Assembly: GCA_964036195.1 (NCBI GenBank)
Contig: OZ038450.1
Span: forward strand, 33,373,197 to 33,437,196
Direction: 5' to 3'
DNA from: Sphaerolaimus hirsutus
Lineage: Eukaryota; Nematoda; Chromadorea; Monhysterida; Sphaerolaimidae
DNA length: 64,000 nucleotides
In this document: piece by piece, positions 621 to 43,168 of the stretch
Numbering within the stretch: position 1 is the first letter of the stretch
Layout of the letters: each line of letters begins with the position of its first letter
The notes under the pieces: model-generated
The model's database searches: none
What the model was told of the DNA's origin: nothing
What the model saw: the letters and a program-made list of their open reading frames with translations, nothing else
Position numbers and translations under genes: made by a program

Positions 621-3600
621 GTGCCAATCCCAAGCCCTGTAAAGTGTAAAGCAAAGTGTCAAATGTAAAGTAAAATGCAAAGTAAACTGTCAATTGTCAT
701 GCAAAGTTCAGTAATAAAATCTTTTCTTTTTGTTTTAATTGACACTTTACTTTGCATTTGACACTTTACTTTACACTTTACAGGGCTTGGGACTGCCCCC
801 AGGCGCACATTCCACCCGAAGAGCGCGTGTTCAGAGCCGGCCCGCCCCCCTGCAGCACGGCGCTGCCCTTCAAGAGGGAGCGCACCATGGGTTTGGGCGG
901 GCCGCAGCCGCAGGTCAACCAACCGCCCCCCAACAAGTATACTTATGATCCGTTCGTTTTCCAGGGGATTTTTTATTGATTTTCTAGATGCATGAATGAA
1001 TGTTAACATATTTTGATAAATGTGATGAATCTAATAATTTCACTTTCACATGAGATATCATAGATGTTTATGCATTTTTGCTTTCAGTGTTAAGTGTGCA
1101 TTTTGTAAACTACCTTGGTAAGTGGTTTCAATTATCATTGCGCTTTGCCATTGGCACCATGCCAAAAAAAAGTCATGACACTTCCAGCATCCGCTGGGCT
1201 GGTGCAATATCTTCAAGTTTATAACAAATCTGATCTGAAGCATCACAAAACAAACATGAATCCGTTTGCTCAAGAGTAGCCTAAAATTTTGGTCCTCGAA
1301 ATTGCTTCATCATATTCATTCGTCATATTTTACACTTATTTAAAGTTTTTGCCCACCAAGAGCAACTAGAAATACCTCAGAAATCATTCTTCGTTTATGT
1401 GTCAATTTTCGGCGCAGTTATGGCGACCCGCCGCCCAAAACTGGACGCACAACTGCGCGCCGCAGGAGAAATTCCATGCCAAATGACGGAAGGAGGACAA
1501 ATCGTAATCAGAATCAAAATCCTGTGAGGGATTTTAGAGTTTTTCTTAAAATTTGAAGCCTTGGGACCCTGGGTTTGGTAATGTCTTCTGGGGACAGTTC
1601 CAGACCCTGTAAGATGTCAAATATTTATCATCAAGGTGGTCAAAGTGATTGAAAATGTGAACTTTCATTGCCAGTCGTGTTTCAGACACTTTGCACGCTT
1701 TTGGGGACTTTCATTGCCAGTCGTGTTTCAGACACTTTGCACGCTTTTGGGGACTTTCATTGCCAGTCGTGTTTCAGACACTTTGCACGCATTTGGGGAC
1801 TTTCATTCCAAAAGTGCATACCTATATCCACAATTTTCAATTTTTCAAAATTGCATTTGAAAGTTTGGCGATGGCCCGGACCTAACTTTGCAGTGCTGCA
1901 CTTTTCAGATACCGTATTTCCTCGAAATACCCCCCCCCCCCCGAAATACACCCCCTCAAAATAGGCACTATGAATTTGTGGTCTGGGAAATGCATAACAG
2001 ATGTTCAAAACACTTACTGTGTTACGTTAGAACATTGTTTATACCATCTACATCCTTATATAAGGCTGTAAAAACTTATAAATGGTGGTTATTGTTGCAT
2101 TTTGCATTTTTCTCTCAAAATTTTCACTCTGAAAAAATAAACCCCTGGGGGGTAACTCGAGGAAATATGGTAGATCGGACATTCCTCTACAATTTTTGTA
2201 TCCACAAATTTTGTTGGCTGACAAATATTTAGGGAGTTATGTGAAATTTTGAAAATCACCCAAAATTGGGAACAAATCTGAACATTTGTAATTGAAAGTT
2301 AAATATCTTCTTGATGGTGCATCGAAAGATGCATGCATGATGGAGTGTCAAAAAGTACATTTACCTGAATTTTCAGATCTGTATATATACATGATCAGAC
2401 TGAAAAGTCCTGGACAGTGCTCGCCATTCACGCTAGGGGTTAGCTACAGTCATAAAACTTTAACATGTTAATATATCAGATGTTTTTAGTTTTCACCCAA
2501 AATTTCACCCCTCTAGCTCCACTCACTGCGGAACTGTGGGGGTTACAATTTCAGTCAATTTCTGATGTACACATGGTGCTCTAGCTCAATGCTGCTTTAA
2601 GTTGTGATTGTGAAACTTTGCCTAGTGTAAGCCACCAGTGTTGGCAATCTGCCAGCACTAAACAACATTAGCTATAATATTATAAGCCTAGTCCATTTTG
2701 CAATTACTGTCACTACTCTCACTACCAAATTCATCATTCTGCCTCTACGGTTGGTCAATACAGGTTAATACAGGATGTATTCTGCGTGCACACCAGAGTT
2801 GTTCAAATACCGGTATTTTTGGAAAACGTAAATGTAAACGTAAATACCTTTTCCAAAATGAAAGTATAAATACTAAAACGTAAGGTATTTTTAAAATACC
2901 TGGGAAAACGTAAAATAAAACGTAAACGTAAAAAAAATTTTTTACCATATTCCATCTAATACAAGGGTGTCCTTCCATGTTTCACCAATGTTGGAGACGC
3001 CATCTGTTGGAAGCTGCCCTTCTATTTTTTCGCCAATTTTTCAGTCAATTTTTCACGTTCTGTCAACGTTTTCCCAAGTGTTATGCCACAAAAAATTGTT
3101 AATTTTAGTATGATGATTCATAGAGTTATTTCAACATTTGATCTTCAAATAGCACAAAATCAATCGATGAAAGCAACTAAAAAACAGTGTCAGGTGACTT
3201 CTTTATTACTGATTTCTTTATATAACAATTCGAGTTTGGGAAGTAATACATAATACTCTGCATTGCAGGTGGGGTCGAACTATAGAATGATTTGAATATT
3301 GAATATACCTACCTATTTTGAAAATACGGCGTCGGTGGAGGAAAAGTGCGGAAATTTTTAAAATTGTCAGAAATTTATGGTGGAAGTTGCATTTTGCTGA
3401 AATTTTTTTGGTCTTACAACGTTTTTTACGTTTTCTCTGGTACCCGGGTATTTTGGGCAGGAAAACGTAACAAAACGTAACAGTATTTTATGAAAACGTG
3501 AATGTAAATGTAAGTATAAATACCCGAATAACCGGGTATTTTGGGTAAACGTAAATACGTTTTTGCAACTCTGCTGCACACTGCTGTTGAACACAGGTAA

Positions 3601-6600: not shown

Positions 6601-9600
6601 CGCGTATACGGCGACCCACACTTAGGGGGGTCGCCGTCGCCCCTGCGTTGGAGTATAGTAGGGGGGGAATGTCGGCTACGTCCCACCCAAATTTCATCTC
6701 TTAATTACCCCCACAGCGGGAGTTATGGCGACAGCAGTCCGGTCAGAAACTGACTGCCGGACCTGATCCGAACGCTGTTTATATGTCCTAATAATTGTCG
6801 TTTAGTCACGTTTATTGCTAGTTATGGGTACGTAAAAACCCATTCTCTACTACCATAGTTTACGAAAATTTCCGGCGAAATAATAACCCCCCCTCGAATA
6901 AGCTCCCCCCTCAAAATACCCCCCTCCCTCAAAATTTCCACTCTGAAAAAATAAACTCCCTTTGGGTATTTCGAGGAAATACGGTATGAGTAAATAGTAT
7001 TTAGGTCAAGTGTCAAGTAAACTCATATTGAGCTACTAAAGATACTTCTGACTTGCAAGCTCACTTGACTTATACTCGGATGACATTTCGCCGTACATTT
7101 TTCCGGAGGAACCACTCCATCATGACGTGATCACTTTCGTCTCCACCATCATCTCTCGCCATCAAGTCGTGTTCATGACGTCATCACTTTGCCGTCATCA
7201 CGCCTTCCATAAGTTCTCGGCTGGCCGTCTGCCAGCTCAAGACATAACTCCTATCTGTTTGTAGAGTATCGTGTCTGTCGAGTATACCTGACATGTCCTC
7301 ACTTGAAGTTGTTTACCATTTACCACTTATCTTGTCCCTTGTCACTTGTCACTTGCGGAATTGGCCCCAGGAGGAAACGGAATGAAGATGAGAACAAAGG
7401 TGTGTACCAAAAAAGGCCGGAAAGTGACCAGAAAAGGTATGATGAAAAGCATCAGCCATACAGCAACAAGGAACAAAGACCTCGCACATATTATTATGAT
7501 GATTATAATGATTCGGATCCAAACAGGTAGGCCATTTCATTATTTACATACCTCATTTGAGGCTTCTAGTTCCGATTGTCGGTATCTCCATCATTTTAGG
7601 TTTTTCCAAAATCGCATTTGAAACTTCAACGTTTTTCACGGCAATTTTCAAAGGAGAACCCTTGCCCAAAACTTTTTGAAAAGCTTTTCAGCTTTACATT
7701 TTCCATATTTTCGACCCTGCGGCCGACGAATACCGTATTACCTCGAATTACCCCCCCCCCTTGAATTAACCCCCCCCCTTGAAATACCACCCCTAAATTT
7801 CGGCTGAGGAAATAATAACCCCCTGAAGATTGTTCGATTTTTCTACGTCTGCGTATGGGGAATTTCCGATAATTTCTGGCGAAATAAAAGAGCCCACCCT
7901 CGAATAAACCCCCCCTCGAATTATCCCCCCTCAAATTTTGCTGGCGAAATAATAAACCCCCTGGGGGTATTTCGAGGTAATACGGTAGTGTTGTACGCAC
8001 GGGGCGTACAAAGTCGAGTTTCCGAGCGAGAAGACCAGCCCCGAGGACTCTGACTGAGCAAAAGGTGTCAGATCCTCAAAATGAGTGGCTGGCGACCGAG
8101 GAGAGTGGAACGTTCGTGTGTGGTGTGCGATTTAGTTTTCATACAACCGTCGCCCTGCGACACGGTTCCCAAATATTAAATATCCATTTCATGTGCGGAC
8201 TGGGGCAAGGAAATGGAGAGGAAAAAGGGGAAATGAAAACGTTCAACTGCCGAAAACGTGGCAGCCGCGCGGCCTTTTATACGCCGGCTCACGCAGCGCC
8301 CTTAATCTAATCCATGCGCCGCCATGACAGCGCAACGAACAGCCGCCTTAACTCGGCTGCGCGCTGCGCTGCCGCGGCGGCGCACGCGCAATAATCGGAC
8401 GCAGTACCGGCGGCGACACCCCCCCCCATGCTCGGGGCAGGGGTGCCAACAGAGCAAACTGAAAAAAAAACCGTAAAAAAACTGTCTCACCCGTAACGAC
8501 ATCAGTCAATTCCTGAGAAAACGAAAAAAATAAAAATCACCCGCTTTTTAAGTAAATATTGTGAAAAACTCCTATTCAATCGCAAATTGTGAATAAATAA
8601 AGCTTAGGCACAAATGTAAATACATTTTACAAATGGAAAATCCAACTAATCGTTTTTTAGAAAACTCATTTTACAAAAATAAAACCACTTTTCGAAAAAA
8701 AAATTTTTTGAAAAACCTCGCTGAACACAAAAAAATCACTTCCGCCCGCCCAAACTTTGCAAAAAAAAACCTGGCCTGATCTTCTAATGTGCCTTCTTGT
8801 TGCTGCCCTGCAGCCACGACCGCAGATCGGTGGTCACAACGCGGCGGCGCGGTGGGGTGCCGCCGGGGCTGGCGCCGAGCGGGGTGGGGGGGCGTGGGGT
8901 CTTTGTGCGGCTGGTGCTCGGCTGTGGTTTGAGGGGGGAAATTTGGGGGGGAAGACGCATAAACAGGAAATACGGCGTCAGTCCGGTGCGTCTCACCTGA
9001 GGGGGGGTTTGCGGCAGTAGATCGTCGTCGCAGTCGCTCAGGATGGGGCTGTGTTCGTGGTTCGGCGGCGGGAGCGTCTGCGCCGCGCGGTTGACGGTCG
9101 GGCGGGGCGCCGCTGTCTGCACCGCGCGGTTGCGCGTCGGCGGCGTGCGCGTCTTCTTGATCTGCTCGGCCATCTTCGCGCTGCTCTTGCGTATGGCCGC
9201 CGCGTCTTTCTGCGCCGCTTCCAAGCGTGCCACCGTCGCTCGCAGCGCTTCTTCGTTCTTCGCCAGCTCGTGTCGCGCCGCGTCGCGCTCGCCTCGGACA
9301 CGCCCCTCGGCGTCGAGGCTCCAGCGCAGCATGTCTGACGCTTCCTGGGGGTAGACGGTGAGTCGGTCGATGGCCGACTTGAGCAGTTGGTTCGCGCTGC
9401 GCAGTTCGGCGAGCTCGAACCGACCTGCGCCGGGGGTATTTCGGGGCATTTACGTGGCATGCGACCGGGAAAAATTCCCTCGGAACCCCTTCCCGCTTAC
9501 CATCACTAGTTGCTGGGGCCGAGGTCGGGGCCGGGTGGGGTTTGCGCGTCGCCGCCGCGCGCGGCGTGGTATCTGCAGCGCAAAAATTTTTCGTCACGCC

Positions 9601-12600
9601 GCTGTTCCAGAAAGTACGTGAAATAATTGGCTCACGTATGTCAATGCCGGATTCCGCGGCCGCAGCCATGCGGTCGGCTTTGGAACCAGCGCCCGCCGCT
9701 GTCGCCATGCCGCTGCTCGCGCGTGATTCTGCGTGACAGTCGCGCCATGACTTTTGGCCGTCTGCCAACTCGACCAAAACACGCTGGGTTTCAAAACCCA
9801 AAAAGGTTGGCGAACCGGTAGCCTCACCTTCTGACTGTGTGGCTGGCTGCACTCTGATCGCATTCAACGGGATCGGCGTGTGGCCGCCAGCGGGGCGGGT
9901 CGGCCCGTTTGCCTTCGCCACGGTGTGCACGAGCGCCGCCTGTTGCGTCTCGTGCGGCTCGGCCAGTGGTGCCTGCGTCAACGGGGTTGGGATTGGGGTA
10001 GGTTTTGGTGCCGGTTCCGGTGCAGTTTCGCTCGAGTGTCTCACGGAACTGACCCAGTTCGTGTGCGCTCGCTTCGGGCTCGGCGCCGGTGCCAGCGGGC
10101 TTGCCGGACGTTGTCGCGCTCGGCTGCGGTTCTGTGCCCCGGCGGGTTGACGCCCGCGGCCGCGGCCGCGGCGGCGGTTGTCGCCGTACTGCTCCGCGCT
10201 GTCGTTTCTGGACGCCATTTTGCTGCAGTTGATGGATTGGGTGTGGGGGGCGGGGATTGTTTTTTCGCTATTTTTCTTTTTTATTTCAATTTCATTTGCA
10301 ATCGTGAGTGTATTCACGGGGGCTCTTTGGATATATTCCCCTGTATCCACGAGGGCGATTGATTTATCCATTCCCACAACTTCGTATGGGCCGGTGCGTA
10401 GGGGGCGTATTTTCTGCTCAACAGCCATGCCCCATCGTGTCTCCATATACACTGTGTCTCCTACTCGTATTTCATTCCCCGCTTTTTTGTCGTGCGCTCG
10501 TTTATATCGTTCTTGCGCGCTTTTCAATTGCATTTTTGCTTGTTGCCATAATGTTTGTAGGTGCCCTGGCTGCTCTGCCCCTTTGGGTACTTTCGTCGCC
10601 AGGGACCTTAGCGTCTTTTGTAGTCTGGTATTGGCGCTGGGGGGGGTTTTGTCTTCGCTGTCGGTTGTTCCGTGCGGGTCGCCGCTCGTTCCTGCTAGCA
10701 GAGGTGGCATGTACCCGAATAACAGCTCGAATGGGGCGTGGGCAACGTCGCGATTGTACGCTACGTTCATGCGCAATGCGATTTCTGGCAGTGCCTCTGG
10801 CCAATTGCGTGAATTTGCGTTATTCTGCGCCCATTGACGAGTCAATTGTTCTACGCTGCGGATAGCTCGCTCTGCTAATCCGTTGGATTGGGAATGATAT
10901 GGGGTCGTTGTCCGCAACTTTATTCCCCATTTGTGTGCTAATTGTGCCACGTCTTTGTTGACGAATTCTGTGCCATTGTCGGTGATCAATTCTGTCGGTG
11001 GACCAAATCGGTGGATGACGTATTTCTCCAGCGCCGCTGTCACTGCGGTTCCAGTCAATTGTCGTAGTGGTGCGAGGGCTACTGCTCGTGTCAGATAGTC
11101 CACTGCGACTAGCAGGTGCTTATGGCCCTTGAATTCTGGCATGGGGGTCGTGTCTGCGGCAATTTTTTGCCATGGTCGGGTGCCTGGGTCGACGGGGAAT
11201 AATGGGCTGAAACCTTTCCGCTGGCCGTCTTTGGACACTTTGCAAATATGGCATTTTTTGACAAATTCTGCTGCGTCTTGCCGCATTCGTGGCCATGCTG
11301 CTACCCTGCCTATTTGTTGTGTGGTTCGTTCTGCACCTCCGTGGGCGCCCAAATTTCCCGCATGAGCTCTTTGTAATAGTCCTTCCCGCATGTGTGTGGG
11401 TGCCCATGGTTGGAACCCTTGTGGTCCTCTGTACTGGATCACATTATCTATCACTCTGTATTGGGCTTGTCCCATCGTGCCTTCCGAGAGCTTCTGTTTG
11501 ATTTTGTTGCCTTCTGGGTCTTTGATTTGTTCTTGTTGCCAGCTGATTTGGGCCTGTGTGCAACGAGCCATGTGGGGGCATAATTTGTCTAACGGGAGTC
11601 TGATGATTTCGCTGGCTCGTTGGAATGCCATTGTATCTGGGTCATCGATGGGATTTCGGCTCAGTGCGTCTGCGATGACATTTTGTTCGCCAGGGCAGTA
11701 TTCGATTGTTAGGTCTTTCAATGATAATCGCATCGCCCATCGGTGTGTCCACCGCTCGATTTTTCCATGCGCTGGTTTGATGAGTGCATTCACTAGCGCT
11801 TTATGGTCGGTTCGCAGGATGACTTTTTGTCCATCGATATAGTCGTCCAGTCGGTCCAGTGCCCATGTGCAGGCTAGCGCCTCTTTCTCGATGGTGGACC
11901 AGTTTTTGTGGGATGTGGGAAGTTTTTTGGATACGAACGAAACGGGTCGTAAGCGATTTGGGTCGGTTGCGCTTTTCTGCATTAACACTGCGCCCAGTCC
12001 CAGGTCACATGCGTCTGTGTACAAGTAATACTCTTTTGTGCGGTCTGGGTGCGCTAGGACTGGCGCCGAACTCAGCTTCAGTTTGAGCACTTCATACGCG
12101 TTTCTCGCGTCTGCCGTCCATTCCGCATGTGGGGGAATTGGGTCGTTGCCATTCACCCTGTACTTTCCTTTGGCCATTTCGTTTAGCGGTGCCGCTAATC
12201 GGTGGAAACCGGGGATGTGCTGGCTGAAATAACCTGCTTTTCCCAGGAAAGTTTTTATGTCTTGTTTTGTGGTGGGGGTGGGCATTTCGAGGATTGCCGC
12301 GATGTTGCTCCTTTTTGGGGCGATGCCATTCTTGCTCAGCTCGAATCCGAGGAACTTGACTTGTGCACAAAAGAAATGGCATTTTTCTGGTTTCAGTCGT
12401 ATTCCCGCCCATTTGAGCCTGTTGAAAAGTTGCACCAAGTGCTGCAAATGCTCTTCCGGGCTATTGCTGGCCACCAGACAGTCATCGATGTAGGCGAAAA
12501 ATGCTGGGCGTTCGGGCTCCTGGTTCAATCCTGTCAGCACGCAGTCCATGAGCCTCTGGAAACTCGCCCCGGCATTTTTTAATCCCAGGGGCATTCGCGT

Positions 12601-15600
12601 ATAGCTGTATTGGCCCCTGCTGCACACGAATGACACCATGTCTCGTGTGGCTGGGTCTGAGATGGTGACATTGTAGTAGCCGAAACTGGCGTCCATTGTT
12701 GAAAACACCGATCGTCCGCTCATCTGCTGGAACATGTCGGTGATTCTGGGGAGTGGATACGCATCCCGAACTGTGACGTCATTCAACTTGCGAAAGTCTA
12801 AGCATAAGCGGTAGTCCGTTTTGCCTTTCGGGACTATGACTAGCGGAAATGCCCATGGCGATGATGACGGGATTATTAGCTTCTTCTTGAGCATTTCTTC
12901 CACGGTTCGCCACACAAATGCTCTCTTTGGAGGGGTTTCAAATCTGGCTGCACATTTTATTGGTTCTGCGCCCGGCACTAGCTCGATTTTGTGCTCTGTG
13001 ACGTGTGTTTCGCCAATGTCATACTCGTTCATACTGAACAGCCCTTCTTGCTGTGCCAAGAGGTTCTTGAAACGTTCTTTTAATTCCTGGGGAAGTGCAT
13101 CGTGGCTCTCTTTGGGTAGGCGGGGCCAAATTTCTGCAATGCGGTCTTGCTCTTCTTGTGTGAGTGGCTGCCACTCGGGGATGTTGTCAGATGGGGGCGG
13201 TGGCTGTGGCAATTCCTTCAATCCCTGCGCTGCAGCCTCTTCTGGCTCTTCCAATGTGAGCGCGTGGGTTGTTGAGAATATTTCTGCGATTTTCGTGCGT
13301 GCTGGGATGTGGCACTCTGCACTTGTTGTGTTTGTGACCCATAGTGGGAATTCTGCTGTTTCCAACCATTCTCGGGTGGCCTGGAATGCTGCGTCACACA
13401 CGATGCCTGGCACTAAATGTTTCAGCCCGCCCTTTGCGTCGCGCTCGTATGGGTCCAGTGCATATGCGACTGTCTCCCCGGACCGTGTGTGTGGTGGTAT
13501 ATAGCTGCTCTTGTCAACCGCGACTTTGACCATGTGCTGTTGACCTGCAAAAATGGTTGTGTCATGCAGCGTGCACACGTCCGCTGTGCGGTGGGTGCTT
13601 TCCTCCATATCATTGCTTGTGCGGAGGATTCCTGTGTCTTGGTCGTATTCCATGGATAGTCGTTCTAATTCTTGGTGAGCTGTTTGGACGATTTGCAGCG
13701 GGCCTAAAATTGCTGCTCGGCCAATTAGCAAAGGATCGGCCGGGGGCAAAAATTCCATCAGTTTGACTACCGCTGGTAGGGTGTCCTCGCGGTGTACTCC
13801 GTCGGGGGTCTGGTGTGTTACAGTCATGTCGTAGATCCGGAGCCATTCACCTTTGATGACTTTTCCGGATGTGCGAATGTGGCTGCCTGTATATGGCCGG
13901 AATTTCGCCCGTTCGTTTTGGGGGTCTAATTGTGCTTTGGCCCAAATTCGCTCCAGGGTGGTGTCTTCAATGAATAGTCCAATATTGCACCCCGTGTCAA
14001 TGTGGCCCGTGATGGGAATTTTGTGGAACACAATTGTTGCCATGGGATCTGGTGGGCCTGCAGTTACGCTGCTTGAGTGTTCCTTTGTGCTCGCGACCGT
14101 GGGGAACCAGCCGTCAGATTCGTTGCCATCCTCGGGTTCTGGGTCGACGAAATTTTCCCAGGATTCTTCCTCTTGTTCTTCCTGCGTGCATCGGACATTG
14201 GGTGTTTCTTGGAATGTGACTTCCATTTCTCTGCATTTCCGCCGCATGTTTTCTCTGGCTTCATCTTCTGTTTTCCCCCGTTTGATCAGGGATTGCAAAA
14301 TGCTATCCGCTTTGCCCGTTTGGCATGCTGGGGAGGCGGGGTTAATGTAGCAGTTGTCGGGGTCATGGGGCATGGGTTTTAGGTGTAGATGGAATGTGCA
14401 CCAGGGTCCCTTGTGCGCTTTTGGGTCAAACATGGCTCGTACCCCGGCGGTCTCGCCGCTGCGCCCTTTCTGCTCATTCTGCCAGCCGGTGTTGTATCGC
14501 GGCCTGTATCTTTGAGTTTTTTGTTCATCTCTGCGTTTTGCCCGGGCTTGTTCTGCTTCTTCTCGGGCTGCGTCGATCATGGTTATCGCCCGGTTCAATG
14601 TGCAAGCCCCATCTTGCCACCGCGTACGCCACATGTACCAGCAGCTGACTGGGGCTAGGCTGGGGGCCTCCGTGAAAAATTTGTCTCCAATCATGTGCTG
14701 TCGGTCGTGATCCGACATTGTTTCACTCACATGGTGGAAATTTGCGCACAGGCGGGTGTGGAATGATGATGCGGACTCTCCTGCTTCTGGTTTTAGGTTG
14801 TACCAATTGGCTACCGAATGTACTGAGTGGTCGGCTTGGTACGCCTCGACTAAGGTGTCCAGCACATAGAGGATGTCGTGGCGTTTATTTACTCTCACTG
14901 CCTGGTATTTGTTCTGCGCGTCATCGGTGAGGCATTGCATGAACACACTGTTCCAGAAGAATTGCTGTTGGCATTCGGGTATTCCCAGCGCTTGCTGCAC
15001 AATCATGTGGAGCCAAAATCGGAATGGTCCTGTTCGGCTGTTTTTGCTCCCATCAAATTTAATTTGCTTGGTTGCCGTGGATGCCACGTGGCCGACGCCG
15101 ATTTTGTCTTTTGGCTGGCGGATTGTGCTCAGCGGCTGCAGGCCGTCTTCTGGGGCTATCACAAATCGCTCCATATACTCAATTATTTGCTGGAGCAGGG
15201 GGCCTTGACTCAAGGTTGCTAGCCGGTCTTCCGTCGACCAACGCCATGGGTCGCTGCTGGCTTGTCTCGTGGCTTGGGACGAACTGCTGAGGGTGCTATT
15301 CGCCACTAGTCGCTTGAGCTGCTCGATTTGCTTATTTTGCTGGTCGAATTGCTGCTGGAACATCGCTGCCATTGCGGCCAGATCGGACGTTTGCACTTTT
15401 GCTTCTGCAAACGGCGTGGGGGATGGGTCGTTTCTTTGGAATTTTGGCTGGAGCACCGGGGCTCTGGTTGCAGTTTCGTCGCCGCTGGCGTTCTCATCGC
15501 TGCTGTTATCGCTGTCATATTCTGGGTCAGCGATCGTTATTGTGGACAGCTGCGCTGACTCAAAATATTTGTCGGCCAAACGGATGAGCCGGCGACTCAG

Positions 15601-18600
15601 CGTTGAATTGCTGTCTTTGCTTGCCACCGTGCTCTTTGGCCATCCTGGTTTCCGCTGTTTGTGCAGCGCTTCTATCGCGTTCACCAGCGCTTTCCGCCTT
15701 CTAAAATCGGTCCATTCCGCGATTTTTTGGCTGAATTCATGCTCCGCATACGTTATCTGCGGTTGCCCCGTGGGGTTCCCTCGCGGGGGTTGGCTAACCA
15801 TCGGTGGGTTAGAGGTTTCGTGATCAGACATTTTTTTCTGTCTCTACGTGCGCTTTGTGGCGCCCCACTTGTCGCTCACGCTGGGGATGTGGGAAAAAAG
15901 GGGTCGCGGGGCCGCTGTGCAAACGGCGCTACCGCGCGTGGAAGTTTCACTGGGGTTTAAAGCTGTACGATCACCATGTTGTACGCACGGGGCGTACAAA
16001 GTCGAGTTTCCGAGCGAGAAGACCAGCCCCGAGGACTCTGACTGAGCAAAAGGTGTCAGATCCTCAAAATGAGTGGCTGGCGACCGAGGAGAGTGGAACG
16101 TTCGTGTGTGGTGTGCGATTTAGTTTTCATACAACCGTCGCCCTGCGACACGGTTCCCAAATATTAAATATCCATTTCATGTGCGGACTGGGGCAAGGAA
16201 ATGGAGAGGAAAAAGGGGAAATGAAAACGTTCAACTGCCGAAAACGTGGCAGCCGCGCGGCCTTTTATACGCCGGCTCACGCAGCGCCCTTAATCTAATC
16301 CATGCGCCGCCATGACAGCGCAACGAACAGCCGCCTTAACTCGGCTGCGCGCTGCGCTGCCGCGGCGGCGCACGCGCAATAATCGGACGCAGTACCGGCG
16401 GCGACAGTAGCTGGAGTTATGATGATTTGATTGACAGCAGGTCAGCAGATTCAGTGGAGATACCCTGTTTCGAGTGATTTTTTATGAAAAATCACTCGAA
16501 ACAGGGTATCTCCACTTAGTACATAGGATTTACTGGGCGGTGGTGGTGCACCGTTTTGGAGTCAATGCTGCCACTCCATGAGAATGGCCCCACTTGAGAG
16601 TAAATTTTGAGTGGAGATACCCTGTTTCGGACAAAGATTTTTTGGAGATACCCTGTTTCGGATGATTTTTTTCAAAAACTGGTTTGGAATTCTATACCGT
16701 AATTCGGATGATTTTTTCTGTTTTGTATGGGAATTTGGACACATTCCTTCAAATCTATACCGTAATTCTGATGATTTTTTCCGTTGGTCGAGATACCCTG
16801 TTTCGAGTGAAATTTTACCAATTTGAGGGTGGAGATACCCTGTTTTGGATGATTTTTGTTTGTTTTTGTTTTCTAAAAATAGGCATTTATGTATGTATCT
16901 CGGGAACAGTATAAGATATTGAGAAAATTCGTTTTCTATCATGAAGAAATAAGTGCACCTATCACAGATCCGCACTTAACTCATTTTTTTCCACTTTGGT
17001 CTTTACCGATATTCGGAACTAGACTAGATGCCTCATTTGCTTTAATAATTCCCTGGGGAATTATTATTTCATCGGACTTTTTCGAGGGGGGGGGGCTTTC
17101 AAGAGGGAGAATTATTCAAGAGAGAATAGCGATTACATCAAAATTTACAAGCAGTTTTCTATCAACTTATTTCTTGAAATACCGTATTACCTCGAATTAT
17201 CCCCCCTTGAATCAACCCCCCCTCAAATAAACCCCCCTCAAAATGGGCTGGGGAAATAATAACCCCCCCTCGAAATACCGCCGCCCCCTTCGGAATGATG
17301 TACGTCATGTAAACACCTTCCCGATCAAGTCCGGCCCCCCATTTTTTATTTTACTTGTGACGTCCTATCTCCTGTTCTAGGACGCGCCAGAAGCTGAAAC
17401 TTGGGGTAGATATTGGCGCAACCCCCCTCTACTTTGCATGAATTGGAGGGGTCGCGGCGACCCCCTACAGGGTGGGTCGCCGAGTGCAAAAAAAAATTTG
17501 CAGCTTTTTTAGTGTCCCACACAGGTCCGGCCCCCACTGATTTCTTTCACTGCGGGTGTCGTACCTCCACCTGCGGGAGGGGTATAAATCTAAAATTTTG
17601 GGGATGTGTCGCCAACACCCCTCCCCTACTATACACTGGCCAGGCGGTCTTTGGCAACTCACCACAGTGTGGGGTGCAAAGTTTAGAATTTATTAAAATG
17701 TTACTGTCCCACACAAGTACATCATCCAATTGAATTTAACAAAATGGACACTTTTGTGTTGTTTTAACTCTAATGTGGTTGACAATGTGAAATAACCATG
17801 AAATATCCTCTAAAAAATATCATATCCGACCTAAAACTGCCCACCACATGAACCCCTCCCCCCAAGTGGGTGACAAAAAAATCACTTTTTACAACTTTTT
17901 CATCAGACACTTGAACTGCTGGTTTACAATGATTTATAGAGGAGGGTTAAAGGTTTCAAATTGTGTAAAAAACATTACCTCAAAAATGCCTTCATAAGAA
18001 AATTTGCTGGGGGTAAATTTAAAATTGTGAATTTTGCCTACTTTTGTTCCTGCAATGATGTCATTTTTACAATTTGAAATTCACCCCCAGCAAATTTTCT
18101 TATGAAGGCATTTTTGAGTTAAGGTTTTTTACACAATTTGAAACCTTTAACCCATCCTCTATAAATCATTGTAAACCAGCAGTTCAAGTGTCTGATGAAA
18201 AAGTTGTAAAAAGTGATTTTTTTTGTCACCCACTTGGGGGGAGGGGTTCATGTGGTGGCCAGTTTTAGGTCGGATAAGATATTTTTTAGAGGATATTTCA
18301 TGCTTATTTTACATTGTCAACCACATTAGTGTTAAAACAACACAAAAGTGTCCATTTTTTTAAATTCAATTGGATGCTGGACTTGTGTGGGACAGAAACA
18401 TTTTAATAAATTTTAAACTTTGCACCCCACACTGTGGTGAGTTGCCAAAAACCGCCTGGCCAGTGTATAGTAGGGGAGGGGTGTTGGCGACACATCCCCA
18501 AAAATTTTAGATCTATACCCCTCCCACAGCTGGAGATACGGGACCCGCAGTGTAAGAAATCAACCGGGGGCCGGACCTGTGCGGGACAGTGAAAACGCTG

Positions 18601-25047: not shown

Positions 25048-28000
25048 GTAAGTCGTGTAATCTGTTTTGGAACGGTGCCAGCTTATTTTATTGCGGTGTT
25101 TTCCGCTGCCAGTTTACCTGAAAGTCGCGTAAATTTTGAGAAGAATGTATACTGGTGCGTACTCGATGGATTTGATTTTTTTGTGGAAAACCCGCAAATT
25201 AAATTAGCCTGTCTAATTGAATTGACAAATAATTGCTGTCCGATTGAATGTAATGAAAGATCGTCGATCAGGAGCCGCTCACAAACTCTGTAACACGTTA
25301 CAAACAAAAATTCTGGTCATTTGACATTTTTCAGGACATGTCAAATGACCAGCAAAAAGTCAATTGACATTTTACCGGGCATTTTACATGACAGAATGCA
25401 TTGCATTTCACATTTTACAGGGTTTGGGAGTAGCCCCTGGGAGACAGAATACAACACGAATAAAAGGACTAATTTATTTTTTCACTCTCAAAAATAAACT
25501 AAATATAAACACCTTCCCGGTCACGTCCGGCACCCTATTTTTGATTTCATCATTTGTGACATCCTATCTCCAGTTCTAGGGCGCGCCAGAAGCTGAAACT
25601 TGGGGGAGATATTGGCGCAACCCCCCTCTACTTGCACGAATTGGGGGGGGGGGGTCACGGCGACCCCTTACAGGGTCTGTCGCCATAAGTGCAAAAAAAA
25701 TTTATGGGCTTTTTTGGTGTCCCACACAGGTCTGGCACCCACGGATTTCTGAGCTGTGGGAGAGGTATAGATCTAAAATTTTGGGGATGTGTTACCAACA
25801 CCCCTCCCCTACTTTTCACCATTCAATAATGTGATATGAATGTGAAAAATTTCTAAAAAATTCTCTTATTCTCTGAAAAACACCACCCCCAATAGATGGA
25901 TGACAAAAAATTCACTTTTTATCAGACACTGGAAGAGCTGGTGCCAGTTCCGCAAAATGAGAAGTGAGAAGTGAAATGGCAAAGATGAAATAAATGAGCA
26001 AAGGAACAGGCGGAAAGGCTGAAGGCGGCGGCTTGGCCTTTGCGCTTTTACTTTGCCTTTGCCATTTCACTTCTCACTTCACATTTTGCGGAACTGGCCC
26101 CAGGTTTACGACACCTTTAAGCAGAGATTACAGCTCAGTGTGAATTTGGCATAAAATGACGATGTAAAATTACATCATAAAATTAATTACATGAGTGTGC
26201 ATCATGCTATGGGTATACAATTTTCTAAGGATAATAGATGAATTAGTACCTTAATCATGTTCAATACAAAGTGTTGTCAGCCACAGCTAGAGCGAATTGA
26301 AAAATTCAATTTTTATCATTTTACGTCATCATTTTACGTCATCATTTTACATAGGGAACAAAGTTTACATTTCACGTCAATGATTGCATGCAACTGTTGA
26401 TGTGAAATGTCCCTGATGTAAAATGATAAAAATTGAATTTTTCAATTCACTCTAGCTGTGGCTGACAACACTCTGTATTGGAAACGATTAAGGTATGGAT
26501 TCATATATTATCCTTAGAAAATTGTAGACCCGTAGCATGATCCACACTCATGTAATTTATTTTAGGACATCAGTTTACGTCATCATTTTACGTCAAAATC
26601 ATGCTGAGCTCTAATCTCGGCTTAAAGGGAAGGGTCTGATGTTTAAAGTTATGTGAAGAACCATACCTCTAAAATGCCTCCATCCATTGGAAAATTTACT
26701 TGGGGCAAATGTTATGACATCATAATGACATCATTGCAGGAACAAAAATTTACACAATTCACACTTTGAAATTCCCCCAAGTAAATTTTGTAATGCAGGC
26801 ATCTTAGAGGTATGCTTCTTTACGTAACGTAGCGGCTGCCCCCCACCCTTTCGCAGGGCTCTGTATACAATCTGCCCCCCCCCTGCTCAAAAATCCTGCG
26901 TACATCTCTGTGTACACCCACATGGCATCGAGACTGCATAGCATGTGCTGGCATGTAGCCCGCTTGGCATCCAGCATTGGATAAATGCAAAGTGGGTCTA
27001 GATGCTAAGCAGGGGGAAATCCATCCTATCCGGGTTTAGATGCCATGAGGCACAGGTAGGGTTCAAACGGGATTGACTTTTCGGGATTGGGATCAGGGTT
27101 GGTTTTTTGAGATTTCGGGATTGTGATCGGGATTGGCGGGGATTGGGGTCATGGGATCGGGATTGGGGTCTTGGGATACAGATTTTGGCCAATGTTCTGG
27201 CATCCACAGTTGTTCATAAAGGTCTCAAAACACTGTTGGATGCCAGAAAATTGGCATAAAATGGATGCTGGGGGTTTGTGTTCACATTTTTGCATGCAAA
27301 AATGTCATTTTTTTCACTTTTTATTATTTCCACTAATTTTTCCGGGATCGGGATCCCGGACTTGGGAGTTTCTCGTGATTGGGATTTGAAAATTTTTGGG
27401 ATCGGGATCAGGATCGGGACTGCTAAATCCCGAATTTCACGGGATCGGGATCGGACTCCTGTTTGAACCCTAGGCACAGGCTCGTTGGTAACACATCCCC
27501 AAAATTTTAGATTTATACCCCTCCCACAGTTCAGAAATCAGTGGGTGCCGGACCTGTGTTGGACACAATAAAGCCAATAAATTTTTTGCACTTATGGCCA
27601 CCCACCCTGTAAGGGGTCACCGCGACCCCCCGAATTCGTGGTTGAGCTAATGTCTCCCCCAAGTTTCAGCTTCTGACGCGCCCTAGAACTGGAGATAGGA
27701 TGTCACAAGTAAAATCAAAAATAGGGTGGCGGACGTGACTGGGAAGGTGTTTATATGTCATTTTACAGCTGACCCGGTGATATCAGCAGCAGTGGAAAAA
27801 TTGCTTAAGAAAAGTGACAATGACTACACTTTTGTGCATTGCAGCGTGGGCCCCAGAGACGCGTAAGATTTTTTTGCAACTTACTTTTCTTTTAATACTT
27901 TTATTTTATCTTTCGCAACCTCCAATTTCCAACTCTCATGAGCACGTTTTTGTTGAGATATAACGTTCTCACACTTCTGCACGCAGTTGGAAGGATGCCA

Positions 28001-30753: not shown

Positions 30754-33700
30754 CTGAAACATTCATCTCTGGCTGCTAAAATGCACATTTATTAGTAAAT
30801 GCATATTTATAATTCTGTAATGTAATTTTAAATTCAATTGTAATTGTGTAACATTATCGTAAAATGTAAAATCTTTAATATTTAAGTCGACGTTCTTATG
30901 TTCGCTTTTATATTTAGTTAATTCAATTTATTACGATTCCATTTATAATTCACATTCCATTTCTTAACATCTTCACATTCGCCATTTAATATCTCAAGCG
31001 ATGTTGTTTACAACGTGCGCTTCACATCGCTCACATCTTTAGATCTTAGTCATTGCTCACATTCCGCCACATTTCCTTGACAAGCAGCACGCAAATACGC
31101 CGTCATGTTTATGTTAAGCGGCGGGCCCGCCCCGAGCGGGGGGCCGAGCCCGCGCGCCATTTCAAATGCTGTCTGGCTTGTCTCACATTTTCACTATCTT
31201 GCCATTTTAGCTCGCTTTTCATCGGAGAAGCGAGCGGGCAAGGATTGAACTTTCACAATTGGAAATGTTGGGTAAAAATCGGAGATTAGAGCCGACCGAT
31301 TGGCGCCAAACAAATCGCCATCGGTCTGGCCCTTAAAAGCCGATTTCACAGCTAGAATCGGCAGTGTTTGCAACCTCGTCAACTTCACACGAATCTCTTC
31401 CTAGGATCTAAATAAGCGCCGTAGTCACTTTATTTAGTCGCTTGTTTTTGGTGCTAAGTTTAACGCTTGGTGCTTTAAGTCACCTCAGTGCTTTATTTCA
31501 CACCAGCGCTGTTTTTGAGGTGCTTTATTCACAACCGCGCCACTTAATTGTCGCCTTTTGTCGTAATTGTAAATGTGAATTTTTACTTCACCACCCTTAT
31601 ATTTGTGCATTACGAAGTGCGGTAAAGCTTTGCCATTTACCGGACATTTCCGGTACGGCACGGTGGGATGATTCACAAAATTGTCGTTTTCGACCACAAT
31701 TTTACAGCGCTTGCCTGTACGGTGCGGAAAAAAGTGCGGCCAGCCAATGGCCATTGTGAGCAGTTATCCAACACCCGGTCCCTTTACCTTCTTAACCCCC
31801 CCCCCCTCAATTTGACAAAAAGTTGCAAAAATGCGCCGATTTGGCAAAGAGCCAACCTGGTAGTCCAGGAATGCCATCTTTGCCTGGTTCCCCCGGCTCG
31901 CCCGCGTGCCCGGGATTACCAGAGTTTCCTTGATCGCCTTTTCTGCCTGCGATTTTGTGCAAATGTGTAATTCGATGACGGCACAATCAAATTACCGTAT
32001 CCAACTGATTGAAAGCAATTTTTGCCCATCGATGACAGAATTTATGACATGGCCGTCGGTGAATTTTGTGCGCAAGACCATGTAAACGCTGCTGAACTTT
32101 TCATGTGACTTTATTCATATGAATACGGTCAAGTTTCTTGTATAGCATACAGTCCGTTCAGTAAAGATAAACGTTTTTAAGTGTATGAATTTACACATTT
32201 TTACCTGGCAGGCCAGCCGGTCCGGGCATTCCCGGCGCTCCAGCGGGACCTGTAAAGTGATTGACAAGTTGCAATTGAGTGCAAAAATAAGGTGAAAATT
32301 GAAAAGTGACAAAGTAAAATGCCATTTACGCCCGCACTGTTACTTTTCACAGTACCATCAATACAATTGTCCTGTAATGTGGCGTCAAAGGCGCATTTGC
32401 AAATTTTGCGCAGTTTTGCAAAATGTGATAATATGTCAATTGTCAGTTGCAAAAAGTACTTTTTGACAGAAAATCTGTAAAAATCGCCTTTGCCTAGTTC
32501 AGCAATTTTAACAAATTCAATTGTACGAATTCACATTTTCAAACACTTGATTTCATAGCTGAATTTTTTGGTGTCAATTATTTAGCATGAAGTATCATTT
32601 AGTTTCCCCATTCTTGTTTAAGTGAATAAAGTGAATTAAATTCCCATTTCTGGTCAAGTGAATAAGCACCCCCCCCCCCAAACGCACCAACAGGGCCGGC
32701 AGGGCCAGACTCTCCCCTGGGACCCTGCATGCCCGCCTGCCCTGCCAAACCCGGCTCGCCCTTTGGCCCCGGGTAGCCGTGCCTGCCGGGCATGCCGTCG
32801 AGCCCGGGCTCCCCCTTGTTGCCGGGCAGACCGGGCGGGCCGATGTCCCCGTCGTGCCCGTGCGACCCTGTGGGGGGGGGGGGGGGTTGTCGGGTATTTT
32901 TGAAGTATGGAGGCCGTCACAGACCCTGTAAAGTGCCATGTGAATTGTCAAATGGCATGCAAAGTGTACAAAGTCAAGTAAATAGTCAAATTTTCCTTTT
33001 TTTACCGGTTGTTTGACATTTTCTTTGACTTTAGACACTGCATGACATTTGCATTTTACAGGGTGTTGGAGTGGCCCCTGGAAAGAAACTCAGTTGTTAT
33101 TTTTCTAGTAAGCTTGAGTTCGAGTGACACACACCGAGGTTCTGCATACCTATTTTTAAAGTTTTGGCAGGGTTCTGAGTTGATTTAGCAAAAATTGGAT
33201 CTTGAGGAGAATTAATGATTGTAGAAAATGCAAACAGAATGTGAGATTTTTCATTTATACTTTTCAACTAGCCAAATATCGATTATATTTTTAAAAAATT
33301 TCTAGAAATCTTATGAGTTTACCTATACTGTGCCCACACACACCAGTTTTCAAAATGACAAAAAAAGAACCTTAAAACTAGTCTGTGTGAGCACATTCCA
33401 TCAAAAATCCACCATCCCAAAAAAGCACTCACCAGGAAGTCCAGGGTCGCCCCTGTCCCCTTTATCCCCCTTGGCACCCATTTCTCCCATGGGGCCCCTG
33501 AAACCTCTATCCCCCTTCTCTCCTGGCAAACCAGGATTGCCCTTTTCACCTGGGGGCAGTCCCAAGCCCTGTAAAGTGTAAAGTAAAGTGTCAAATGCAA
33601 AGTCAAATGCAAAGTAAAGTGTCAATCAAAACAAAAAAGAAAATATTTTATTACTGAACTTTGCATGACAATTGACAGTTTACTTTGCATTTGACTTTAC

Positions 33701-36700
33701 ATTTGACACTTTACTTCACACTTTACAGGGCTTGGGATTGGCACCTGGGGCCCCCGGGTAGCCCTGCGGCCCCCTGTCGCCCTTGATTCCCTGGGGCCCT
33801 TGCTCCCCCCGATCCCCTTTGGAGCCAGTGGGGCCCGCGGTGCCCTTGTCGCCTGGTTGGGGGATTGTCCATCAATTGAGCTTTTTACAAATGTTTTTAC
33901 ATTATTTTTCATATTGATGTTCAGAAGTTTGTACTAGTTTCCAACCGAAATTTCGAAAACACATAAATCAGATTTAACGCATTTAAGTGATCTAGAATGA
34001 GCCATTTTTGACATACGTCAACTAAATTAACGGATATATCATACTGTAAAACTGAAATCTGTTCAAAGCTTATTTTGAAATTGAGCCTGGGCACGTTGTT
34101 CAATACATTTTTCAAACCCTAGTTTTCACAATAACCATCTCTTTCTTGCCGCGATGCTGCATTCCAAAATCGCTGGGTTAGACGTTCCCATGTAGTTATC
34201 ATTTTGCACAAATGATTTCACTTATGTAAATCAATGAACTCCCTTGCAACGTTTATTTACCTGGCAAGCCTGTCAAACCGTCAAAGCCGCGGTCGCCCTT
34301 CGCGCCTGCAAACAGTATCCAAAACTTTAGTGCCTTAGAAAAAAGTGTCCTGAAACACTTCAAAAAAGATGTCCACATACCGGGATGTCCAGGGGGTCCC
34401 ATGGGTCCCTGGGGCCCGGGTCCAATTTGAGAGACCCTATTATTCAAATTCTTTATATGCCGCATGAGCAGTTGCAATTCGTGCGCGTGTCGTTCCAATT
34501 CCAAGTTCAAAAAACTCAACTCTGGGTTTTCCTGGGGCCAATTCCACAAGTGGACAAGTGATGAGAAAAGTGGTAAGTGCCATGTGAATGACAAGAATGA
34601 TCAGTGACAAGTGAATGAGTGGTGAGAAAAGTGACAGTTTTAAGTGGTGAATTAAGTGTCGGGTGAATGTTCAAGTGACAGTACCAAAACCAGGTGCCAG
34701 TCCCGCTCCCTGTAAAGTGTAAGGCATTTGACACTTGACTTTACACTTTCCAGGACTGCCCCGTGTGCACAAAAGTACTAATAAACTACCTAGTGTAGTA
34801 GTTGATTGAACTTACCATAAAGAAGTTCAATCAACTACTACTGTAGTAATGTAAAACATAAATGCCATTATGTAAATACTTGTGGCCGAGCCTTAAAAAG
34901 AGTGTATAGCATTTGGTGGCTGACACTATGTTACCCTAACGCTTAGCTATCCAAAAAAATGGATAATTTAGTTTGCAGAATACATAATAAAATAAAATAT
35001 TTTCACAGAAATTCTCTCAAAAGAAAATACAATTTTATCATTCTGGAAAAAGCTGAAGAAAATATAAAAATAGGGACAAGATTTTTTATAATCTTTTTTT
35101 GAACTAAAAATCTCGCTCGCTCTTTGTAACGGTTATGGACTGCAGAGTTGTTTAAAGGTACGTACGTTTACTTGAAAAATACGTGTACGCGAGTACGCGG
35201 TAAATATGTTTACATATACTTTTTCAAAAAGTAACGTACTCACATGTACGCGTACATTTTTGAGGCATACGCGTAAAGAAAATGTATTTCTGTGAATTCA
35301 ATTTGGCACATCTTTAAAAGGTGACTACGCTGCAATTTACTATATTTCCTCGAAATACCCATGGGAGTGATTGTTTTATAGTGAAAATTTTGAGGGGAGT
35401 TAAACAAGGGCTGGTATTTCGAGGGGTTTTTTTATTTCGCCAGAATTTTTCAGAACTCTCAGCACTAATTCGTTCTTTAATTATAACATACGCTGAGGTA
35501 GAAAAATGCAACAACAACCTCCATGTATAAGAGTATTTTTTTGACTTACATATATATATGTATTTAAATATAGATGGTATATACTCTGTTCTAACGTGAC
35601 TTGGTCATTGTTTAAACACGTGTTCTGCATTTCACAGAACACAAACTGAAGGTTTTAATATTTACGTTCCATTTACGTTCAATTTGGGGGGGGGGCTTTC
35701 AACAGGGGGTCAATTATTTAATTCGTAGGGCCATTTTGAGGGTTGTATTTCAAAAACGTACCCAGTTCTACATATTCTATGAAGAAAAGTGCTCGCTTTT
35801 GCATTTTAATGGGAAAAAAAATTTTACTCACATTTACGCGTGCGTACGAGTAAAAAAAAGGTATTTTACGTTTTCGATACTTTGTGGTGAGTAAAATATA
35901 AATACTTTACGTTTACATATACTTTTCAAAAAGTTCAGTAATTCTAACAACTCTGATGGACTGTACCTTGGTTGTCACTCGCCACCATGGTTGGTTTTAG
36001 TAAAATTATTTTTACTAAAATTGTATTTTATTTTTATTAAAAGTGTATTTTATTTTATTCATGTTTCATTTTTTATATTTTTTTATATTCTGAAATGTCA
36101 TTAATAAAATAAAATGAAATCATTTTACAAAAATTTTACAAAAATTTTACAAAAATTTTACAAAAATTTTACAAAAATTTTACAAATATTTTACAAAAAT
36201 TTTACAAAAAATAAGAATCTTGGATCGAAGGAAGTAAAACAACTTGCATGCTAGAAGCATGCAGATGAATACAAAAAATGTAATGTAGACTTTTGACATG
36301 GGTTGCGACATAGGTAGGTTTCTTGAATTTTGACCGTCACAGTGGCCGGGTAGATGGATGGAGAGTGCTACATGAAACATACTTGCCCACGAAACATACA
36401 CGCACGCAGTGTTATAACAATGCATGAGTGATGCAATGTGTGTACTGATAATTTGATAATTAGAGTATAATAGTGATAATTACTATGATTGGCATATCAG
36501 CGACTTCTATCAAAAAGTCGACACGAAATCTCCTTTTTTCACCAAATAACATGCCATTTTGGTTCAAATTCGACGGAACAAATTGATCATATGCATTAAG
36601 GGGGGGATTATTCAAGGGGGGTTTTTTTTTCCTCGCGTGTCGGTCAGAGGGAATTAATCATACAAATACGGCACTTTGTTACCCAAATAAACACCCCGGG

Positions 36701-41738: not shown

Positions 41739-42036
41739 CGTATTTCGAGGGGGGGGGGTATTTTTTCCCCAGCTCAAAGACACCTGGAGGCAGTCCCAAG
41801 CCCTGTAAAGTGTAAAGTAAAGTGTCAAATGTAAAGTCAAATGCAAAGTCAAGTGTCAATCAAAACAAAAAAGAAAAGATTTTATTACTGAACTTTGCAT
41901 GAAAATTGACACTTTACTTTGCATTTGACTTTACATTTGACACTTTACTTTACACTTTACAGGGCTTGGGATTGGCACCTGGGGGTATTTCGAGGGGGGG
42001 TTAATTCAAGGGGAGGGGTAAGTCGAGGAAATACGG
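41739..42036. mobile_element. CCGTATT-type MITE hosting a family-1 element
   Basis: CCGTATTTCGAGG at the left and TCGAGGAAATACGG at the right, split by the element at 41790-41976. Confidence 0.65.
41790..41976. mobile_element. Family-1 element, non-intronic copy
   Basis: Also 187 bp, with the same ends as the collagen introner. Flanked by ACCTGGAG (41782-41789) and ACCTGGGG (41977-41984). It has inserted into a CCGTATT-type MITE whose uninterrupted relatives read CCCCTGGGGG here, so it is a transposition event outside any gene. Confidence 0.82.
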
Positions 42037-43168
42037 TGAATGTATAAATAATCAGTTTTTGCCTGTTGCTGCTCAATGACGGTTTATATTTCAGTAAATG
42101 TATCCGCTCTACGAGTCAGGTGAGATGTTTTGGCACTGAAGTGAGAAATTATTAGTACATTTTTCAATTGGAAACTTTGCCATCAATCATTAAGACACTT
42201 TTGAACACCTGTACTCAGAAATTACAACATGTTTATATTCGTTGTCTGGTACCAATTCTGCAAGCGGAAATGTGACAAGAAAGTGGAAAGTAAAGTAAAG
42301 CAACGTCAAGTGATAAGTCAAGTGAAAGTATCATTGACAGATTTCTAAGTAATCCAGTGAAAAGTGACATGTTACCTTATTATGGATAGTAAATTTCCAA
42401 CAGTGGCAGTGCCGCACCCTGTAAAGTATAAGTCAAGCGTCAAATGTTATGTCAATTCGAAATAGCAGGATTTTATTACTGAACATTTGACATTTTTCAT
42501 GACCTTTGACAAATTTGTGTGACATTTTACATGACATTTGACACTTAAATTTACAATTTACTGGGTACTTGTCAATTCTGAAATTCAGTTCGCCAGCACT
42601 AAATTTCACACCTAAAATGCAGATTGGCGCCAAAATTCTGTAAGGCAATTTTCTTTGATCGATCGCTGCGGCGCCAATAACGATGACAAACCCTCTGAAG
42701 AGAAGTGTCAAATTTTTAAGTGTTATTTTCGGAAATGCGTTTGAATTTTTCCAAAAATGTTTTCAAATTTCAATTGAGTTTCTGAATTTTTGGATTTTTT
42801 TAAAGAATCGATCTTAACTGTTTTTCTGACCGTAAAATAACAATTCAAAATATCTTTAAAAAATTCGAAAATCTTTCGAATTTCAATTTGCCATCGTTAA
42901 TAACCAGCCGCTCAATTGCCGAAATGCTCTGTCTACTCTGTCTCGCCCTAACTGTGCTTTTCTTATTTTACCTTTTCTAGGGGCTATAATATTTCATCAT
43001 ACCCGCAAATGTACGGTGCTTTGCGTTAGACTGGCGCTGGTGCGAAATGCAAATAGTAGTGGTAGAATGGCGCCAGCGCCAGCGCCACAGAGAGATTTCG
43101 GCGTTCGGCTGACAAAAATATTTAGCTTTGCATGCATATTAAACCGAAACACTTGAAATAGAATTTTG
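42037..43168. other. intergenic repeats, mostly partial elements
   Basis: Holds a half family-2-like end near 42247 (GGTACCAATTCTGCAAG), a diverged family-1-like fold-back at about 42410-42565 (ACCCTGTAAAGTATAAG ... ATTTACTGGGT), and a TTGCCATCGTTAATAA end of the TAACGATGG family near 42888. No gene. Confidence 0.4.

Follow-up and report, generated by a model that had tools for sequence, protein, structure and literature searches.

A Harbinger3/NuwaI-like miniature transposable element as the probable source of a collagen intron in the nematode Sphaerolaimus hirsutus

The stretch of DNA analyzed here, hereafter the window, comprises 64,000 nucleotides of contig OZ038450.1 from the nematode Sphaerolaimus hirsutus (assembly GCA_964036195.1). 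It contains a collagen gene in which one intron is filled completely by an inverted repeat, with arms of 78 nt that are 91% complementary. In gene direction, the exon ends with ...GGGGCCCCAG, is followed by the element (GTGCCAATCCC...GGGACTGCCCC) and a CAG, and continues with GTGAAAAGG. The intron consists of one transposon-like element and one copy of its target duplication, a 192-bp element plus a single 3-bp CAG making up the 195 bp. An earlier note on this DNA, made from the letters alone, had described a 195-bp intron at this place as a transposon-like inverted-repeat element, and our analysis agrees with it in this main point.

When the 108-nt and 124-nt exon parts on either side are joined, the Gly-X-Y pattern continues without interruption and Pfam Collagen is recognised in the joined sequence (8.8e-22), while a translation on paper shows that retention of the element would introduce stops. 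The view that splicing restores Gly-X-Y thus holds for the joined exon parts, and removal of the element as an intron would be the step by which this restoration is achieved in the transcript. The features are collected in Table 1, together with two further copies of the element in the window.

Table 1. Collagen locus and copies of the element, in positions of the window
Feature	Position	Strand	Remarks
Intron of the collagen gene, 195 bp, made up of the element and the downstream copy of its target duplication	33550..33744	-	
Miniature inverted-repeat transposable element (MITE), 192 bp	33553..33744	-	In gene direction, start GTGCCAATCCC (donor GT) and end GGGACTGCCCC
Downstream duplication copy, CAG, forming the AG acceptor	33550..33552	-	3-bp size from empty sites of other copies
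Upstream duplication copy, CAG, final exon bases preceding the donor	33745..33747	-	3-bp size from empty sites of other copies
Gly-X-Y exon segment of the collagen gene, 5' of the element	33745..33852	-	
Gly-X-Y exon segment of the collagen gene, 3' of the element	33426..33549	-	
Second copy of the element, 179 bp plus CAG	621..802	+	Flanks CTG/CAG; may form an intron within the final coding exon of a different gene; coding judged by eye
Third copy of the element	41787..41978	-	Flanks CAG/CAG; in repetitive, non-coding-looking DNA

The boundaries of the element were deduced from its copies in the genome (348 Mb, 762 contigs). In the alignment, the copies share GTG[C/G]CA at one terminus, and nearly all have ...CTGCCCC at the opposite one; the part repeated on both sides is confined to the adjoining triplet, in most cases CAG or CTG. 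A strict set, in which both ends had to lie within 700 bp, holds 81 paired copies; 18 unpaired ends were dropped. Of these copies, 79 combine one GT-type with one GG-type end and two (L099 and L101) carry GT-type ends on both sides, shares that are biased because the loci were mostly fetched by their GT-type end. Exactly 192 bp is the length of 41 of the 79 standard copies. CWG (W denoting A or T) stands on both sides in 71 of them, identical on the two sides in 49, with the flank pairs CAG/CAG (32), CTG/CTG (17), CTG/CAG (13) and CAG/CTG (9); the other eight copies have ATG/ATG (2), CCG/CAG (2) or other pairs (4). Among the fetched loci, paralogous empty sites show a single triplet in nine cases (L007, L023, L048, L057, L074, L086, L100, L107, and L111), and the empty-site matches of L006 are mixed.

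These comparisons revise an important part of the earlier description, according to which a 187-bp element was accompanied by one copy of an 8-bp duplication supplying both splice sites. An element plus one duplication copy is indeed present, but other copies and empty sites set the sizes at 192 and 3 bp. The 8-bp match CCCCAGGT was rejected as a duplication, as it is composed of the 3-bp duplication and a chance agreement of element and host bases. Since the duplication measures 3 bp and GTG is shared by the copies, the donor GT is the terminus of the element and does not stem from the upstream duplication copy. Consequently, only the AG acceptor comes from the duplicated target, namely from the downstream CAG, as had been proposed.

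A genome-wide search for the element, suggested previously, reveals a high-copy family. At least 82 matches were found (40 scored of 2,285 candidates), and the 27-bp end has 254 and 242 exact matches. Ends adjoining CWG number 1,997 for the GT-type and 1,719 for the GG-type, whereas reversed-pattern controls gave 0. Being short and non-coding, with terminal inverted repeats, high copy number and uniform length, the element has the properties of a MITE. The median divergence from the consensus is 1.6% (68 copies of 150-240 bp, substitutions only), five of the 68 copies being identical to the consensus without gaps and four being outliers at 14-17%; this divergence is biased low because copies were chosen by similarity or exact end, a point to be held against a young age. 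Despite this bias, the low divergence shows a recent burst of the element.

Elements of this kind qualify as introners, i.e., as makers of introns, if they occupy unrelated exons with GT..AG edges and an exactly restored reading. This is the case in collagen and in a second gene, at L005, where a sense copy flanked by CAG/CAG can be removed to yield a GT11 glycosyltransferase domain that aligns across the junction (Pfam, 3.2e-7). It applies weakly to the decarboxylase-like locus L101 (CAG/CAG), where 42 residues align to N-termini of aromatic amino-acid decarboxylases in a PDB search (best E 0.0076, a weak value); nine of the ten matches at E up to 10 belong to the decarboxylase enzyme family, and both printed alignments pass the junction without a gap. 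The right-hand copy of the duplication is CAG at all three loci. Further sense copies in exons were judged by eye only (L010, L013, L062, L070, and the window copy at 621-802); the latter and the collagen copy do not form an independent sample, because both lay in the window. L009 and L087 carry the element at apparent existing splice sites (by eye), and the placement of L050/L051, L054, L088, and L097-L099 is ambiguous. L097, L098, and L099 (C2, ~29.30-29.32 Mb) are similar loci with a common antisense insertion; the bases after CAG are GTGG in L099 and GGGC in L097/L098, so that one copy has GT at the insertion edge.

An introner-type origin and recent activity are supported by the terminal inverted repeats and target duplications, by ends numbering in the thousands, by the low divergence of the sampled copies, and by exonic copies with restored reading, in good agreement with the active or recently active introner family assumed at the outset. 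In our view, the element is likely a recently active introner, a MITE of the Harbinger3/NuwaI type whose target includes the proto-splice site CAG|GT, and the collagen intron was likely made by its insertion and is probably spliced out.

Several observations weigh against this reading. The CTG/CTG flanks of L091, which is situated in an open frame, provide no AG acceptor; L061 is antisense in a coding-looking frame; and most sampled copies have no visible exon location. At the paralogous 'empty' matches of L047, L065, L075, L079, and L109, the expected triplet is not clearly shown. A mechanical test of orientation, which demanded an uninterrupted frame of 30 codons or more on either side of the insertion and dropped 5 of the 81 copies, revealed no preference (AG class, 12 sense versus 11 antisense of 46; others, 9 versus 7 of 30), and selection on the orientation of exonic copies is therefore no more than presumed. 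No Pfam match was obtained for the stretches around L101, L062, L010, L013, L070, and window 621. The same holds for L061, L050, L099, L087, L054, and L088, and L091 gave three weak Pfam matches below the cut-off. The PDB search returned no match for L062, L005, window 621, and L013, and four unconvincing ones for L099 (best E 0.27); the protein database yielded no homologue for the stretch at L062 or for that at L101. Two amino-acid or codon scores served only for the ranking of candidates. An ordinary MITE that disrupts exons, its exonic copies being young, slightly deleterious or heterozygous and lacking clean splicing, would account for the majority without visible exons, for the absence of orientation bias in the open-frame test, and for L091 and L061. 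We regard this as unlikely, given that GT..AG boundaries in gene direction go along with an exactly restored frame at all three sites supported by domain or homology.

The main uncertainty concerns the splice sites themselves. Judged against the splice-site consensus, the boundary donor CAG|GTGCCA seems weak, and two internal sites, GTAAAG 18 nt into the element and TTTACAG 19 nt upstream of the acceptor, look stronger, which also counts against the boundary reading. Splicing could proceed from the internal GTAAAG to the boundary acceptor and add six codons to the protein, and this pair keeps the frame without a stop, with a donor that resembles the consensus more closely. However, among the 40 GT..AG pairs inside the collagen intron that are at least 60 nt apart, three keep the frame without a stop and the boundary pair is the only one that preserves Gly-X-Y, which the internal donor would disrupt. 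Moreover, six extra residues contrast with the joining without any extra residue that matches the GT11 profile and aligns gapless to the decarboxylase N-termini, and use of the internal donor is accordingly rather improbable. That an older intron at the collagen site was replaced or filled by the element, as might be suspected from further introns of the same gene that by eye also seem to fall between the first and second base of a glycine codon, is highly improbable, as there is no intron sequence beyond the element and the 3-bp duplication, and the identical exact fit recurs at unrelated sites.

Having given preference to an introner that was recently active, we turn to its transposon type. 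The bases around CWG form a palindromic target, CAC-CWG-GTG. Upstream, position -1 is C in 53, -2 is A in 38 and -3 is C in 32 of 79 copies; downstream, +1 is G in 40, +2 is T in 36 and +3 is G in 38 of 78. The palindrome CACCWGGT, as in Harbinger3_DR, is thus a preference and not an absolute requirement. Harbinger3_DR is a reconstructed active element of zebrafish that integrates at AAACACCWGGTCTTT (PMC3016246, as far as consulted); that target is palindromic, while the one described here is centred on CACCWGGTG. NuwaI, a member of the PHIS/Harbinger superfamily found in animals only, duplicates 3 bp of the form CWG, as verified by empty sites, and has a terminal repeat that usually starts with GGG, according to the consulted sections of Han et al. 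2015 (PMC4482050). The 3-bp CWG duplication, seen here in both flank counts and empty sites, is common to NuwaI and the present element. In contrast to the NuwaI families of that source, which possess DDE and Myb/SANT genes, our element is a non-coding sequence of 192 bp with GT at one end. A GGGG-type terminus at one end and GTG at the other were observed at 79 of the 81 paired sites, loci that were mostly chosen by their GTG end. Taken together, the CWG duplication, the CACCWGGTG-like target and the GGGG end are compatible with a MITE of the Harbinger3/NuwaI type, to which the element is assigned because of its target and duplication, not because of a transposase.

Transposase genes of a fitting kind are present in the genome, with at least 163 matches to PF13359 (150 scored of 306 candidates), which, as listed, form a very uniform DDE_Tnp_4 family. 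Around the six PF13359 matches that were listed for C1 as far as 23.4 Mb, no exact matching element end was found within 5 kb, the nearest lying at 5.6 kb; the comparison did not extend to the transposons' own termini. An excess of 192 bp in PF13359 matches of 633 bp suggested a transposase gene carrying the element, a candidate that was rejected because L112 has no copy inside. L112, the one copy read, is a transposase gene with apparently two short ordinary introns.

On this basis, the following course of events can be proposed. A non-autonomous Harbinger3/NuwaI-type MITE of 192 bp, possibly mobilised by a Harbinger-type transposase, would insert into the collagen exon at CACCWGGTG-like DNA and duplicate CAG. 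The exon-side CAG together with the element's own GT would form the 5' splice site, the opposite terminus reading GG, which may reflect a change of GGG into GTG on one side of the element. The element's CCCC and the second CAG would provide the 3' splice site. The spliceosome would then remove the element and one CAG, leaving the mRNA unchanged, and selection may retain exonic copies in spliceable orientation.

An unexpected feature of the duplication is its centre base. In 22 of the 71 copies flanked by CWG on either side, it is A on one side and T on the other, while a base other than A or T occurs in only 4 of 158 flank copies. On C1 from 0 to 23.4 Mb, 12 of 53 such CWG-flanked pairs among the matches listed, a hand-compiled and partly overlapping sample, are mismatched, split 6 and 6. 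Mismatched copies are not older, with a median divergence of 1.7% (n=14) versus 1.6% in matched ones (n=47), and L013 is centre-mismatched yet identical to the consensus. Six mismatched sites have paralogous matches, three of which are informative: the changed side is the right one in L023 (5/5 matches) and the left one in L100 (5/5 matches) and L077 (1 match), so either side can be changed; L029, L075, and L079 are uninformative. L050 and L051, taken as a candidate single insertion, are almost alike in flanks and site yet differ in the right copy, which speaks against a purely insertional mismatch. In the by-eye exonic copies L013, L062, L070, and window 621, the flanks are CTG/CAG, and an AG acceptor is therefore present despite the exon-side CTG.

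The observations can be combined into a broader, still tentative proposal, which we consider possible and short of probable. Harbinger-type integration may be pre-adapted for intron creation, as CACCWGGTG contains CAG|GT; a single G-to-T change at base 2 of the terminal inverted repeat may have produced an intron-maker; and the centre of the duplication may often be exchanged at insertion, perhaps from the donor site, such that an insertion into CTG, where an AG acceptor would otherwise be missing, could yield a spliceable CTG|GT...CAG.

Longer elements with the same ends and different interiors measure ~320-520 bp (L032, L040, L054, L063, L066, L067, and L071) or 1.3-1.7 kb (L039, L045, L055, and L068), and no transposase remnants were seen by eye in the long relatives of 1.3-1.8 kb. 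Partial diverged relatives, with ~67-85% identity in pieces, lie at 42417-42565, 32908-33081 and 25361-25441 of the window, one of them in an intron near a collagen exon. A CCCCCTCGAAATA-like repeat recurs in the window at ~5300, 7900, 17200, 23900, 30000, 44000, and 48300 and has itself been hit by the element, as shown by the copy at 41787-41978. Furthermore, an open frame of 2,390 codons (8671-15843, reverse strand) has by eye the look of a Ty3/gypsy-type polyprotein.

Introners are reported to be rare in animals. Gozashti et al. 2022 (PMC9860276, in the sections consulted, as in what follows) studied 3,325 genomes and found introners in 175 of them; the 835 genomes of animals and land plants in that set yielded just two introner-bearing groups, both of them animal. 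Like the introners described there, the present element has terminal inverted repeats and/or target duplications and makes introns by insertion into exons; unlike them, it combines a 3-bp duplication with a palindromic target that contains CAG|GT. Its architecture, with an own 5' splice site and a 3' one from the duplication, is an already known introner class, as one family in Chrysochromulina, without terminal inverted repeats, brings its own 5' splice site and borrows the 3' one from a duplication of 4 bp. Harbinger/PIF is unmentioned in the main text of that paper, and the consulted part of PMC3016246 does not mention intron formation by Harbinger3_DR. In the open-licence literature searched, we found neither an animal introner whose Harbinger-type target coincides with a proto-splice site nor an exchange of the centre base of a duplication.

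If the reading holds, a named type of animal transposon with a known target motif would be tied to ongoing intron gain, in animals, where introners are reported to be rare. There would also be a concrete reason for the appearance of new introns at CAG|GT proto-splice sites, namely that they are the preferred landing place of the transposon. With thousands of similar ends in one genome, polymorphic presence and absence of introns becomes testable within a single species.

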